NCBI GenBank assembly: GCA_035627955.1
Contig: DASPKU010000001.1
Coordinates: 310,001-374,000 of the forward strand
DNA from: Phycisphaerales bacterium
Lineage (GTDB): Bacteria > Planctomycetota > Phycisphaerae > Phycisphaerales > UBA1924
Direction of reading: 5' to 3'
Length of the DNA: 64,000 bases
Each line of letters opens with the position of its first letter. Within the stretch, counting starts at the first letter, position 1. The notes under the pieces were generated by a model, which had not been told where the DNA came from, did not search any database, and saw only the letters and a list, made by a program, of their open reading frames with translations. The position numbers and the translations under genes were made by a program. Positions 1-4,662 of the stretch are shown here, piece after piece.

Positions 1-619
1 TGTCGAGTTCTTGGTAGGTGACCGTCTCTTCGATCTTGAAGGTCTTGTCGATCAACTCGAGGTGGTCTTCCATCTTCTCGGTGTCTGCCTCACTCACGTC
101 CTCACTGTTTTCGAACTCCGCGATCACCTCCCGCTTTCTCTTGTTGGTTTTTACGAGCTCTTTGAAGAGAACCCAAGGAAACTTCGCGGTCGACTTAGAG
201 AGGAACGCGAACTTGTACTTGACGTCGTCAGGCGCGGCGACTTCGCCGCTGAGGATGTTGAAGTACAGCTCCTTCCCCTCATAGCTCCCCATCAGCCCGA
301 TGAAGAGGCTCTGGAGTCGCTGTTGCCCGTCGAGTACCAAGCACTTCTTCTTGTTGTCCTCGGGCACGTAGAAGTGGGATAGTTTGAGCGTTTCGCGCCA
401 GTTGTCGATGAACTTGCGTCGCCGAATGCCGCTCGTCGTCTTCCAAACCAGCAGCGTGCTGATTGGGTACTGGCGGAGAATCGAGTCGAACAACCGGCAG
501 ATCTGGTCCTCACTCCAGACGAAGGGCCGCTGGATGTTGGGCAACCAGAAGCCTCCCTCGTTTTCGGGGTTGTTGAGGTAGTCGACAATCTTCCGGATCG
601 TGAGTTTCTGGTTCTTCAA
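1..619 (-). CDS. DUF262 (GmrS/ParB-like) protein, 3' part missing
   Basis: The visible 206 residues carry the DUF262 signature: an IQRPFVW motif near residues 29-35, YPIS at 51-54 and LDGQQRLQSL at 96-105. The family has a ParB/sulfiredoxin-like fold and includes GmrS-type subunits of type IV restriction enzymes, where the DGQQR region is part of the nucleotide-dependent core. I start it at TTG 619, because an in-frame TGA (the stop of the upstream gene) sits only four codons before it and GGGAG lies five bases upstream of the TTG. The coding frame is the same as that of the preceding DUF4391 gene, separated by a 12-base gap, so the two are surely co-transcribed. The C-terminal part, which would show whether an HNH nuclease domain (DUF1524) is present, is beyond the edge. 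Its role here is inferred to be defence. Confidence 0.8.
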   Translation of the reverse strand, partial: MKNQKLTIRKIVDYLNNPENEGGFWLPNIQRPFVWSEDQICRLFDSILRQYPISTLLVWKTTSGIRRRKFIDNWRETLKLSHFYVPEDNKKKCLVLDGQQRLQSLFIGLMGSYEGKELYFNILSGEVAAPDDVKYKFAFLSKSTAKFPWVLFKELVKTNKRKREVIAEFENSEDVSEADTEKMEDHLELIDKTFKIEETVTYQELD

Positions 620-631
620 AGGTACTCCCAG

Positions 632-1399
632 TCACAGTTTCGCTATGGCTTCACGGTGCTGCGACTGGAGCAACTGCAACTCAAGGTTGAGTTCCACCAA
701 GCGCGAGGTCTGCCGCTCCTTGGTGGCCAGGGAGCGCAGGGAGGCCATTCTACTTTCCAGCACGGAAACCGCCAGCAGCGCGGCGCGTCTTTCCGCGGCT
801 TCTTCCGGGGTCGCGGGGACGCGGAAGTTGGTGGTGAGGCGGGCGGCGTCCACCGCCGTGAAGGCGTCCATCCAGCCGCGGTAGAGGGCGTAGAGGTGGG
901 GCCGGGGGCGCGCGGTGAGGGCGAGGGCGGGGAGAAGCTGTTGGCAGAGGGCCGTGGGGAGCTCGCCAAGGCGCACCTCGTGCACGTCGCCATCAAGGAC
1001 GGTCTTGCCGGATTCGCCTTGGGACCAGCGCTTGTCGACCAGGGAGAGGCGTGGGCCTGTCGGCATCCCCGAGGCGATGAGGAGCAGCGGGTATGGAATG
1101 GCACGGTGGACAAGCTCGGTGAGGCGCGCGGCCTTGGCGTCAGACGCCCCCGCGCGGAGGGTGAGCGTGAGCACGGCGACTTCGAGCACTTCGCGGGCGT
1201 CGTCGCGGTAGGCGGCAAGCCCGACGGTGGTGGGCTTGAGGGCGGCTGTCCAGTGGAGCTCGTCAACGAGGTCGTTGATGGACTTCTTGTCGGTGCCGGT
1301 CGCGGCCCCGTGCTCCACGAGCAGCTTCTTGGGGACGCGCTGCCCCACCAGGGCGCTGGAAGGGAGCCCGCAAGCCGCGATGACTTCGTCGGCCGTCAC
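632..1399 (-). CDS. DUF4391 domain protein
   Basis: A 255-residue protein with the DUF4391 pattern: an RVPKKLLVEHG stretch near residue 21, a TDKKSINDLVDELHW block and LKPTTVGLAAY, followed by a C-terminal helical tail. The biochemical function is not known. From general knowledge of genome neighbourhoods, DUF4391 genes often sit next to SNF2-like helicases and modification methylase/Res genes. The start is GTG at 1399; its GTGA overlaps the stop of the helicase gene by four bases, so translation is probably coupled. The stop at 632 is 12 bases before the DUF262 start. It is best read as a helper subunit of the surrounding putative defence module. Confidence 0.72.
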   Translation of the reverse strand: MTADEVIAACGLPSSALVGQRVPKKLLVEHGAATGTDKKSINDLVDELHWTAALKPTTVGLAAYRDDAREVLEVAVLTLTLRAGASDAKAARLTELVHRAIPYPLLLIASGMPTGPRLSLVDKRWSQGESGKTVLDGDVHEVRLGELPTALCQQLLPALALTARPRPHLYALYRGWMDAFTAVDAARLTTNFRVPATPEEAAERRAALLAVSVLESRMASLRSLATKERQTSRLVELNLELQLLQSQHREAIAKL

Positions 1400-4300
1400 G
1401 CGATGCCGCTCGCCGGAGGCAGGATGACCAGGTACGCGAGTACTTCGAAGTCGTTGACACCCGCGAACTCGCCCTTGCGGGTGGTGGTGCCTCCGGGGGT
1501 GAAGAGGCTGGCGGCGGAACGCTCGTCGCTGCGGCTTTGGATGGCGGCGGTGGCGGCCGCGAGCAGCTTCTGGGCGTGCTGCATGTCGCGGCCGAAGTGG
1601 GTGGCCTTGTCGAAGCGGGCGCAGGCGGAGGCGTCGGGGAGGTCCTTGCCGATACAGAGGCGCTTGAGGCGGTCGAGGATCTGCTTGGCCTGGGTGTAGC
1701 CCAACAGCACGGCGCCGTCGTCGCCCACGTGCACGAGATAGTTGGGCGCGAGCGGGTACCCCGGTTCGGGCAGGACCTTCGGGGGCACGCCCTCTTCTTC
1801 CACGGCCTGCAGGCAGAAGATGATCCCGGGCGGGATGTCGTCGTCGGCGGAGGTGGTGACAGCGAAAGCGCCGAGCGGCAGGTTCTCGAGTTCCCCGGGG
1901 TGGGCGCGGGCGTACTCGGCGAGGTCGATGCGGAAGTCGGTGAGGGTGAGGTCGGCGATGGAGACGCCGGTGGAGAGGTCTTCGAGGTCGATCACGGCCT
2001 CCTGCAGCTTGAGCAGCTGAGCGCGGCGGTACTCCAGGTCGTTCATGGGGTCGCCCGACTGCGTCTCGATGATGTTCTCTTCGCCGGTGGCGGAGACGTC
2101 CAGCAGGACCATCTTGCCGCTGACGCGCTGCTCAAGGTTGATGTACTCCTCCAGCTCCATGTTGGGCCAGAAGTTGACAAGCTGCACGCGGGCGTTGGTG
2201 GAGCCGATGCGGTCAATGCGGCCGAACCGCTGGATGATGCGCACCGGGTTCCAATGGATGTCGTAGTTGACCAGCCAGTCGCAGTCCTGGAGGTTCTGGC
2301 CCTCGCTGATGCAGTCGGTGGCGATGAGCAGGTCGATCTCGCCCTCGGACGCGAGGTCCTCGGGCCGCTGCTTGGAGCGCGGGGAGAAGGCGCTGAGGAT
2401 CGAGGCGTGGTCCTTGCGAAGGTTAGTGAGGGTGGTGTGGTTGCGGCCGTGACCCGTCATGACGGCGGACTCGACGCCAAGTGTTTTCTTCGCCCAGGGC
2501 GCGAGCTGCGAGTAGAGGTAGTCGGCGGTGTCCGCGAAGGCGGTGAACACGATCACCTTGCGGTTGCCGGGGTTGATGGGCTTCTCGCACTTCTTGAGGA
2601 TTGCATCCTTGAGGAGCGCGAGCTTGTGGTCGCGGGCGGGTGTCACGAGCCGGGCGGCGGAGAGGAGGGTGCTGAGGCGGTTGCGGTCCTCGATCAGGTC
2701 CTGCCGCCAGCGGACCAGGTCCACGTCGCTCAGCAGCACCTTGACCTTGCGGCCGACAAGCAGCGGCTCGAACGCCGGGTCGTCGATATCTACGTCCTCG
2801 ATGTTCACCTCTTCGAGCTCGGCCCCGCTGGAGTGGTCGTCGATGCGGGCGATCGTGGCCTCGACGTCCCGGAGCTGACGCTCCAGGGTGAGGGAGAACG
2901 AGTGGATGGAGCTCTCCATCCGCTTGAGCACGTTGACCCGGAGCAGGTGCACGAGGCTCTCTTCCCGGTCCACCTGCCGCCAGAAGCCCTTGCCACCCTT
3001 GACCTCGGTGCTGTACTTGCGGTCGTAGGCCTCCTGCTTGTGGCCGAGGATGTAGCGGAGCGGGGCGTAGGCGGCGAGGTTAAGGCGTCGGATCTCCTGG
3101 TTGATCTCGCGTATGGGACGGAACTCGCGTTCGATGTCCACGTCCGCCTTCACGTTGATTGGCTTGAGGCGGTCGGGGAACCTGCCTGTCTCCGCGGTGC
3201 CGTAATACTTCTCCACGTGCCGCCGTGAACGGGCGATAGTGAGGTGGTCGAGGAGCGCGAAGTAGTCGAAGCCGAGCATGTCCACGAGCTTCGTGGGGGT
3301 GCGTTCGTCCTCATCGAGCTCCAGCCAGCGGTTGAACTGCTTCTGGGCGAGCCGGGTGGTGCGGTCGATGCTCTCGATGCCGAACGGGGCAAGGGCCGTG
3401 TCGTCGCCCTCGGTTGCGAAGGCGATCTGGTTGCGCAGGTCCGCAAGACGGTTGTTGACCGGCGTCGCGGAGAGCATGAGCACGCGGGTCTTCACGCCCT
3501 CCTTGATGATCCGCCGCATGAGGCGGTCGTAGCGGGTTTCACCGTCCGCGCGCGGAGTCTTTTTGTTGCGGAAGTTGTGCGATTCGTCGATCACGACGAG
3601 GTCGTAGTTGCCCCAGTTGACGTGCGTGAGGTCGATGTCCCCCGACTGGCCGCCTTCGCGAGAGAGGTCGGTGTGGTTGAGCACGTCGTAGTTGAAGCGG
3701 TCGGCCGCGAGGATGTTGCGGCGGTCGTTCGAGGCGTACAGCGTCCAGTTGTCGCGGAGCCGTTTGGGGCAGAGGACGAGCACGCGGTCGTTGCGGAGCT
3801 CGTGGTACTTGATGACGGCGAGGGCCTCGAATGTCTTACCCAGGCCGACGCTATCGGCGATGATGCAGCCGCCGAAGCGGTTGAGCTTGTCGATCGCGCC
3901 AACGACACCATCGCGCTGGAACTTGTAGAGCTTTTTCCACACGACGGTCTCACGGATGCCGGTCGCCGCATTGACGACGCGGTCCTCGTCAAGGGCGTCG
4001 CCTCTGGAGCCGATCAGGTGGTGCAGGATCGCGGCATAAGCCGATCGTGGCCCGGAGTGCTCGATGAGCTTGGCCAGCGAGGCGATGAACGCATCACGGT
4101 GCTCGGGCGAAGAGGGGAGCGATGCCCATTGCGCGTCGAACCACTGCCCGAAAGTGGCGGCCTCCGATGGGCTTTCGGTCGCCTGCGTGATTGCGAGGGG
4201 GTTGCCCGGAAGCAGCCCAAGGCCCCCAGAATTCAAAGCGAAGCTGCCAACCGTCGCAAGGCGGGGCGACCGCTCCTGGTCGCGCAGGATCATGGTTCCT

Positions 4301-4662
4301 TGTGGCAGGTCCGATCGGGCCCGCCGAACTTCAACGGCCGCTCCCGCCCAGCCTTGCAGCTGCCGCGCGAGCCAACGGCTCCTCAGTTCATTACGTGCAG
4401 GCCTCTCCTGGGCGTCTCCTTGCAGGAGAATGTCGTGCTTCGGCCCGGGAAGGATCAGCCGTGTCGATTCAGCACTACAGAGAACCCTTTCGAGCCCCGC
4501 GAACCCAAACAGCGACATGCTCGGCGTAGCGATATCGAGCCGGAAGGGTGATGCGGCCGCCGCAGAGGCGAGAAGATCAGCGGCACGGTCTGTCCCGACG
4601 TTGGCAACAACTCGCATGAATCCTCCCGCCTGCAGCATACGGGCAAGCCGAGCGGTACTCAA
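1396..4662 (-). CDS. SNF2-like helicase with degenerate phospholipase D-like N-terminus
   Basis: A 1088-residue superfamily 2 ATPase. Walker A is ADSVGLGKT (about 269-277), motif II is IDESHNF (358-364) and motif III is LSATP (397-401). The C-terminal lobe has IATDCISEGQNLQ and IIQRFGRIDRIG, i.e. motifs V and VI of SNF2/RapA-type translocases. The first 170 residues resemble a PLD-like domain (GSFALNSGGLGLLPGN is like the second half of an HKD motif), but no HxK is visible, so nuclease activity looks lost. Helicases of this build occur in defence clusters. It is the first gene of the leftward run and overlaps the next gene by four bases. The start could instead be the Met at 4638 or 4617; there is no strong ribosome binding site at 4662. 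Confidence 0.85.
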   Translation of the reverse strand: MSTARLARMLQAGGFMRVVANVGTDRAADLLASAAAASPFRLDIATPSMSLFGFAGLERVLCSAESTRLILPGPKHDILLQGDAQERPARNELRSRWLARQLQGWAGAAVEVRRARSDLPQGTMILRDQERSPRLATVGSFALNSGGLGLLPGNPLAITQATESPSEAATFGQWFDAQWASLPSSPEHRDAFIASLAKLIEHSGPRSAYAAILHHLIGSRGDALDEDRVVNAATGIRETVVWKKLYKFQRDGVVGAIDKLNRFGGCIIADSVGLGKTFEALAVIKYHELRNDRVLVLCPKRLRDNWTLYASNDRRNILAADRFNYDVLNHTDLSREGGQSGDIDLTHVNWGNYDLVVIDESHNFRNKKTPRADGETRYDRLMRRIIKEGVKTRVLMLSATPVNNRLADLRNQIAFATEGDDTALAPFGIESIDRTTRLAQKQFNRWLELDEDERTPTKLVDMLGFDYFALLDHLTIARSRRHVEKYYGTAETGRFPDRLKPINVKADVDIEREFRPIREINQEIRRLNLAAYAPLRYILGHKQEAYDRKYSTEVKGGKGFWRQVDREESLVHLLRVNVLKRMESSIHSFSLTLERQLRDVEATIARIDDHSSGAELEEVNIEDVDIDDPAFEPLLVGRKVKVLLSDVDLVRWRQDLIEDRNRLSTLLSAARLVTPARDHKLALLKDAILKKCEKPINPGNRKVIVFTAFADTADYLYSQLAPWAKKTLGVESAVMTGHGRNHTTLTNLRKDHASILSAFSPRSKQRPEDLASEGEIDLLIATDCISEGQNLQDCDWLVNYDIHWNPVRIIQRFGRIDRIGSTNARVQLVNFWPNMELEEYINLEQRVSGKMVLLDVSATGEENIIETQSGDPMNDLEYRRAQLLKLQEAVIDLEDLSTGVSIADLTLTDFRIDLAEYARAHPGELENLPLGAFAVTTSADDDIPPGIIFCLQAVEEEGVPPKVLPEPGYPLAPNYLVHVGDDGAVLLGYTQAKQILDRLKRLCIGKDLPDASACARFDKATHFGRDMQHAQKLLAAATAAIQSRSDERSAASLFTPGGTTTRKGEFAGVNDFEVLAYLVILPPASGIA

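Follow-up and report, generated by a model that had tools for sequence, protein, structure and literature searches.

The question raised by the left end of a 64,000-nucleotide stretch of a Phycisphaerales bacterium genome (assembly GCA_035627955.1, contig DASPKU010000001.1, positions 310001-374000; the window in the following) is to which system an SNF2-like helicase, a DUF4391 protein and a DUF262 protein, encoded in a row and truncated by the edge, belong. An earlier note, made from the letters alone, had proposed a restriction-type defence cluster cut by the left edge and linked to a methylase, in an unfamiliar order that could represent a variant system. Upon leftward extension of the analysis over contig positions 300001-319999 (stretch L003, in which a coordinate equals the window coordinate plus 10000), the DUF262 gene continues to window position -1051 and is directly followed by the genes for a type III modification subunit (Mod) and a type III restriction subunit (Res). 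As read from its sequence, the locus is a complete five-gene type III restriction-modification operon with a two-gene SNF2-DUF4391 module and an embedded GmrSD-type gene, and it is probably anti-phage. The features are listed in operon order.

Window 1396-4662, minus strand: SNF2-family ATPase, first gene of the operon (open reading frame (ORF) of 1088 amino acids; Pfam SNF2-rel_dom and Helicase_C)
Window 4084-4602, minus strand: PLD-fold N-terminal domain of the SNF2 protein, approximately residues 21-193, without HxKxxxxD (model and structure searches)
Window 632-1399, minus strand: DUF4391 protein (ORF of 255 amino acids; Pfam PF14335)
Window 1-619 (206 of 556 amino acids), continuing to window -1051 (L003 10619-8949), minus strand: GmrSD-type protein, DUF262 plus DUF1524 (GmrSD_N, GmrSD_C)
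Window -1048 to -2976 (L003 8952-7024), minus strand: type III Mod, 642 amino acids (Pfam N6_N4_Mtase)
Window -2973 to -6236 (L003 7027-3764), minus strand: type III Res, 1087 amino acids (Pfam ResIII, RE_endonuc)

The ORFs and Pfam matches agree to the base with the described order of helicase, DUF4391 and DUF262, as the first two ORFs share four bases (1396-1399) and a spacing of 12 bases (620-631) precedes the third, with further four-base overlaps at both the GmrSD/Mod and the Mod/Res junctions. The motifs sought are present in the four enzymes of the operon, except for the PLD motif. Mod matches the PADLOC profile MTase_III with 687 bits and the EcoP15I Mod subunit with an E value of 7e-65, and its motifs DPPY and FAGSG are intact. 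Res equally retains GTGKT, DEPQ and the C-terminal D...ETK and matches REase_III (PADLOC, 1319 bits), the Pfam RE_endonuc domain (116 bits) and the EcoP15I Res subunit (E value 5e-65). The DUF262 gene is intact downstream, as the earlier note had asked of it, encoding 556 amino acids with DGQQR at residue 97 and DHIFP at residue 449, and its GmrS-like character is borne out by GmrSD_N (PF03235, 105.5 bits), while GmrSD_C (PF07510) scores 32.7 bits versus a cut-off of 23. The protein also matches PADLOC HEC-05 (336 bits) and, among solved structures, the 587-amino-acid DUF262 protein 7p9k, which we take to be BrxU, over residues 8-551 (E value 3e-32). The idea of an unknown three-gene system, against which the earlier note itself had set an adjoining methylase-Res pair, gave way to the type III Mod and Res found by the extension, as the three genes belong to a type III operon of five; the designation as a variant stands in a narrower sense, as Mod-Res pairs without SNF2-DUF4391 exist.

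The SNF2 protein retains the motor motifs GLGKT at residue 273, DESH at 359 and QRFGRIDR at 811, and its best PADLOC profile is C3a139 'HKD+Snf2' with 364.8 bits. Its N-terminus, which the earlier note had recognized as a degraded PLD-like domain, was modelled over 229 residues (from residue 21; model m0740a05bbac5) with an alignment of 33 sequences including that of the window, drawn from the 47 loci with an SNF2 homologue (pLDDT 85.5, pTM 0.78). Foldseek searches with the model retrieve PLD proteins (Zucchini, E value 9e-5), and the top VIA row is SauUSI, a restriction enzyme matched in its PLD part (7clg; Z 12.6, root-mean-square deviation 3.5, 148 residues aligned), a narrow lead as several other PLD rows lie within 1 Z unit. 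The motif H.K....D occurs in 0/33 aligned N-termini, the window's included, while at the residue matched by eye to the catalytic histidine, glutamine is found in 31/33 sequences, with an invariant glycine nearby. As judged from the model, the PLD fold is retained with the catalytic motif gone in every aligned SNF2 N-terminus. Since all 33 aligned sequences lack HxKxxxxD, its loss is a trait of the group, and both an active PLD nuclease in this domain and a decay of the window copy alone are ruled out.

DrmD is the next-best PADLOC profile for the SNF2 protein at 128.7 bits, and with the NCBI equivalog model for DrmD the score is 153.8 bits versus a cut-off of 610, for which reason DISARM was rejected. 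Of DrmA and DrmB, the PADLOC matches listed for the five operon proteins, to which the scan was confined, include only a partial DrmA match (79.7 bits) on the SNF2 helicase part, and there is a partial BrxHI/BrxHII helicase match to the same protein; neither PglZ nor BrxC is among them, BREX genes not having been searched genome-wide.

The DUF4391 protein scores 189 bits versus the Pfam cut-off of 29.9, and the sequence VHRAIPYP is invariant in the 40 sequences aligned from 40 of 49 loci, the nine omitted loci having mostly split, cut or over-long ORFs. Although the model is of high quality (pLDDT 95.9), it retrieves nothing at an E value of 0.001 or below from the PDB (best 0.14) or from the viral structures of BFVD (best 0.034), which is no proof of a new fold. 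VIA rows mainly cover the C-terminal helices at residues 194-255 (top Z 8.0). The sequence profile finds PDB sequences with a best E value of 0.55, and no PADLOC profile matches at 0.001. Assignment as a PD-(D/E)XK nuclease finds no support in the invariant residues as judged by eye.

How constant this arrangement is can be seen from two sets of loci. The first set was obtained by scanning GTDB contigs with the window DUF4391, which gave 48 loci, 49 including the window, with hosts spread over many bacterial phyla. An SNF2 homologue is present at 47/49, Mod at 45/49 and Res at 33/49 loci, several of them as fragments at contig ends. SNF2 and DUF4391 lie within 300 base pairs (bp) of each other in 43/47 loci, with an exact four-base overlap in 34/47; an intervening ORF is found in four loci (L021, L027, L045, L048). 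Three stretches (L027, L031, L036) end at most 0.4 kb past DUF4391, Mod was not found at L010 though this stretch does not stop just past DUF4391, and the Res of L033 is a fragment of 63 amino acids. DUF4391 is split into two ORFs at two Chlorobiaceae loci (L005 9965-10759, L006 1000-1794). No SNF2 gene is found in the 9.9 kb upstream at L005, an operon which, by its split DUF4391 and missing SNF2, looks decayed, and only about 1 kb upstream was at hand at L006.

Since the loci of the first set had been chosen for their similarity to the window, a second set was assembled from six of ten plasmid records (tblastn) and nine genome regions (Pfam model), leaving out partial matches in the genomes G041, G304 and G325 as well as everything that scored below the cut-off. 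SNF2 is encoded at most 300 bp upstream of DUF4391 in 15/15 of these loci (as two ORFs in L086), and Mod and Res follow downstream in 13/15, the remaining two (L083, L089) ending with their stretches. Res is truncated in L060 and, on an Acetobacter plasmid, interrupted by an IS1380-type element (L058 9454-14164). One of the plasmids is archaeal (Methanomethylovorans), and three are typed conjugative. DUF4391 itself is matched above the Pfam cut-off in 10/392 genomes of the window's phylum and in 4/61 near relatives, the window genome being part of both counts. At least ten plasmids carry DUF4391 by tblastn; two more (L092, L095) surfaced only through Res. One of these, the E. coli plasmid pP59A-2 (L095 2478-11081), possesses a divergent SNF2-DUF4391-Mod-Res core with a short annotated Mod (951 bases). 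Close relatives of this core occur in 10/5,426 complete E. coli genomes, with 10/11 places on plasmids, and no match was found in phage records by megablast. A tandem pair of Mod-like genes within one operon was observed twice (L088 10135-13955, L032 10781-14704).

In contrast to this near-constant core stands the content of the gaps between its genes. With the DUF4391-to-Mod gap defined as slot 1, the Mod-to-Res gap as slot 2 and 300 bp as the threshold of occupancy, slot 1 reaches this length in 17/45 measured loci, or in 15 once the split-DUF4391 artefacts L005 and L006 are taken off; the other 28 (30 with these two) have no room for a gene. Ten of the 15 filled loci carry one homologous protein cluster that includes the window GmrSD. 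Five of its members were run against Pfam (window, L013, L015, L028, L041), with GmrSD_N in 5/5 and GmrSD_C in 4/5, L013 being the exception; DGQQR is present in 10/10 and D/EHxxP in 9/10 sequences, again not in L013. In the second set, GmrSD_N proteins occupy slot 1 of L083 and L087, the latter without a GmrSD_C match, so that GmrSD-type slot-1 proteins amount to 12 of 59 assessable loci (45 plus 14, counting L083 although the contig ends inside the gene). The helicase-DUF4391-DUF262 order that the earlier note suggested to look for in other genomes does recur, because DUF262 occupies an exchangeable slot. Slot 2 is filled in 23/33 loci, and 0/28 ORFs picked there cluster with GmrSD.

By Pfam, the other slot genes encode AlbA-HATPase, YhcG, DarT, macro, RhuM, BRO-N and Fic proteins, a helicase with a UvrD-type C-terminus, an SMC-like ATPase and AbiEii adjoining a DUF6088 protein, while several lack a Pfam match; PADLOC profiles matched are HEC-06, PDC-S02, PDC-S05 and PDC-M59A. 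DarT together with a second gene of one family is found between Mod and Res at two loci (L004 13445-15156, where the second gene shows a macro domain, and L038 11752-13479).

That the cargo is exchanged in place follows from near-identical cores with slot genes of only 24-25% identity. L040 and L043 share 97% identity in SNF2 and 94% in DUF4391, as compared with 25% in the slot-1 protein and 65% over 420 residues in Mod, and L039 and L041 share 96% and 94% in SNF2 and DUF4391 with 24% in the slot-1 protein. The swapped proteins represent two types within the GmrSD cluster, and members of the second type (L015, L028) carry DUF5655. L040 and L041, on the other hand, have slot-1 proteins of 89% identity despite a divergent Mod (56% over 418 residues), which indicates that exchange of the cargo and change of Mod are not tied to each other. 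For the window copy, SNF2 is sister to that of L032, in which slot 1 is empty, whereas the GmrSD protein is 68-69% identical to the slot proteins of L040 and L041. Based on these sequence comparisons, the DUF4391-Mod gap is an exchangeable cargo slot.

Whether the cargo depends on its host operon can be approached through its relatives elsewhere. Among the matches listed, the nearest plasmid relatives of the window GmrSD are from Nostoc (56% identity) and Nitrosospira (51%), the rest reaching about 30% at most. No SNF2, DUF4391, Mod or Res homologue is encoded in the 17.7 and 12.7 kb fetched around these two, other restriction types not having been searched for, and because of this absence the GmrSD protein is probably able to work by itself. 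Both GmrSD and BrxU are stimulated by nucleoside triphosphates and cut DNA carrying modified cytosine (PMC10952713; PMC12707154; here and below, statements refer to the portions of the cited papers that were available).

We infer what the five proteins do, how the work is split between them and what SNF2-DUF4391 contributes, and favour with moderate confidence a restriction in two layers. In the first layer, Mod would methylate host sites and Res, together with Mod, would cut DNA without that mark. The SNF2 protein, with its PLD fold devoid of the motif, and DUF4391 may form an ATPase module that aids the type III complex in loading onto DNA, moving along it or clearing it; this helper role is suggested because the pair combines a conserved position with a motor that has lost its PLD motif. 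In the second layer, GmrSD would, by analogy with characterized GmrSD and BrxU, cut DNA with modified cytosine, that is phage DNA disguised against Mod-Res.

Several observations weigh against this two-layer reading, the SNF2-DUF4391 role being its weak point, as systems without the module exist. Out of 149 plasmid records with a Res relative at an E value of 1e-30 or below, eight further ones were inspected by sequence and annotation. Two of the eight (L092, L095) possess SNF2 and DUF4391, two (L090, L094) lack DUF4391 and encode an SNF2 that is a distant one (65 bits), and four (L091, L093, L096, L097) have neither in the stretch, with Mod split by an insertion sequence (IS) in L093 and Res truncated beside an IS in L097. 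These relatives show that a Res of the family can do without the module. Exchange at the slot is supported by a tree of SNF2 (57 rows over 900 amino acids; L007, L034, L050, L083 and L086 were dropped as too short), with 3 changes for the window's GmrSD type (GmrSD_A, 3 rows), 4 for the second type (GmrSD_B, 4 rows) and 5 for GmrSD versus the rest, but this is a quick tree with long-branch warnings and with five rows of unassessable slot 1 uncounted. The guanine-plus-cytosine content of the GmrSD gene (0.554) is the lowest of nine genes measured in L003 (others 0.597-0.699; SNF2 0.652, DUF4391 0.688), but that of Mod is also low (0.597), so that composition does not single out GmrSD, and the four-base GmrSD/Mod overlap is equally compatible with a coupled role.

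Module-free type III systems embed genes as well, namely RhuM (L091) and a PDDEXK nuclease (L096), and by sequence embedding is not peculiar to the DUF4391-bearing version. An arrangement without DUF4391, which consists of a helix-turn-helix gene, the distant SNF2, Mod and Res, was observed on a Rhizobium (L090 1648-10976) and a Cupriavidus plasmid (L094 2862-11015), the former with an annotated DUF262 gene between Mod and Res.

The main competitor of the two-layer reading is a guard arrangement, in which the embedded gene would encode a toxin-like effector restrained by the restriction complex and set free once a phage blocks restriction, as PrrC in EcoprrI. Precedents are PrrC (PMC12707154) and DarTG2, which is encoded within a type I operon (PMC12255303), and toxin-like cargo is indeed found at the slots with DarT plus macro, Fic, AbiEii, RhuM and YhcG. 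The nearest plasmid GmrSD relatives, however, are encoded without any homologue of SNF2, DUF4391, Mod or Res over the 17.7 and 12.7 kb covered and hence are carried without the restriction complex, and slot 1 has no room for a gene in 28/45 measured loci, which makes a guard unlikely. Still more doubtful is an integrated machine, with SNF2, DUF4391, GmrSD, Mod and Res in a single complex, GmrSD as its nuclease and DUF4391 as an adaptor recruiting the slot proteins. The gene overlaps of the window copy would fit such a complex, as would the confinement of GmrSD in DUF4391 operons to the DUF4391-Mod slot, with none among the 28 slot-2 ORFs tested. On the other hand, Res retains its own endonuclease domain, GmrSD is present in just 12/59 assessable loci, distantly related GmrSDs substitute for each other beside a near-unchanged DUF4391, and L090 has its DUF262 gene between Mod and Res without any DUF4391. 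That an ordinary type III system merely adjoins SNF2, DUF4391 and DUF262 in a defence island is very improbable, as, although Mod-Res without nearby SNF2 or DUF4391 exists (L091, L096), SNF2 accompanies DUF4391 in 47/49 and 15/15 loci with the exact four-base overlap in 34/47, and Mod follows in 45/49 and 13/15, in hosts of many bacterial phyla as well as on plasmids, archaeal and conjugative ones among them.

With respect to known systems, EcoP15I is made up of Mod and Res. The window operon shares with EcoP15I-type systems the adjacent Mod and Res, the family domains, the motifs and the subunit matches, and differs by SNF2 and DUF4391 before Mod-Res and by the embedded GmrSD. 'Guilt-by-embedding' candidates (HEC, PDC), defence genes embedded in defence operons, have reportedly been put forward by Payne and colleagues in 2024 (doi 10.1101/2024.01.29.577857, as cited in PMC12988326 and PMC12255303); the HEC-05 match of the window GmrSD and the HEC/PDC matches of other slot genes are the common ground. 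With GmrSD and BrxU of type IV the embedded protein has in common a DUF262 part with DGQQR and a DUF1524-like C-terminus with DHxxP. BrxU is located in a BREX island (PMC10952713; PMC12707154), and in Campylobacter the DUF262 gene rloF separates hsdS from hsdR at type I loci (PMC4619093), whereas the window GmrSD lies between DUF4391 and Mod of an extended type III operon. RhuM, Doc and PrrC have been recorded in restriction operons (PMC3710099).

In the RRDM island of E. coli, DarTG2 is encoded inside a type I operon with the repressor RptR (PMC12255303), so that an effector lies between restriction genes, as is the case for DarT in L004 and L038, where Mod and Res enclose it; the island is of type I, whereas the window operon is type III, and no SNF2 or DUF4391 is named for RRDM in the portion of the paper available (PMC12255303). 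A small gene annotated as helix-turn-helix is found directly 5' of SNF2 in L060 (7551-7748), L090 (1648-1875) and L094 (2862-3062); by analogy it is possibly an operon repressor like RptR. COG1743-DUF499-SNF2/nuclease operons encode a methyltransferase together with an SNF2 helicase that forms a fusion protein with a nuclease of the PLDc or PD-(D/E)XK kind (PMC7641849), whereas the window operon has no DUF499 gene and possesses a type III Res. An SNF2 helicase and a methyltransferase are also common to DISARM with DrmD, although the window SNF2 scores far under the threshold for DrmD and its operon includes a type III Res.

The operon is flanked on one side by genes for a MeaB/B12-binding protein and a Vut_1 transporter, and on the other side by an ORF of 223 amino acids without Pfam match and a gene for a topoisomerase VI B-like protein. 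ARAGORN found no tRNA in L003. A Vut_1-like gene stands beside a MeaB-like gene in 3/8 relatives fetched, but the two right-flank genes searched are present in 0/8 stretches, so that these relatives gave no insertion boundary.

The SNF2-DUF4391-Mod-Res core with its exchange slot would be a new variant, while type III systems, GmrSD, RloF and embedding are already in print. The core was not found in the literature searched, in which DUF4391 is named by a single paper, within a table; an account without the word DUF4391 could escape such a search, and an earlier description is possible. A bolder proposal, tentative at best, is that SNF2-DUF4391 would be an undescribed upgrade of type III systems, with SNF2 as a former nuclease turned DNA-bound sensor or motor, DUF4391 as an adaptor of new fold, and the gap as a dedicated swap site for backup effectors such as modification-dependent nucleases and toxins beside a near-constant core.

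For the family, these results provide DUF4391, a domain without known function, with a recurrent context as the partner of SNF2 before type III Mod-Res in bacteria and on one archaeal plasmid. Operon pairs with near-identical cores but different slot genes represent natural swap experiments on the contribution of the embedded effector, and the related core in 10/5,426 E. coli genomes makes a study possible in a standard laboratory host.

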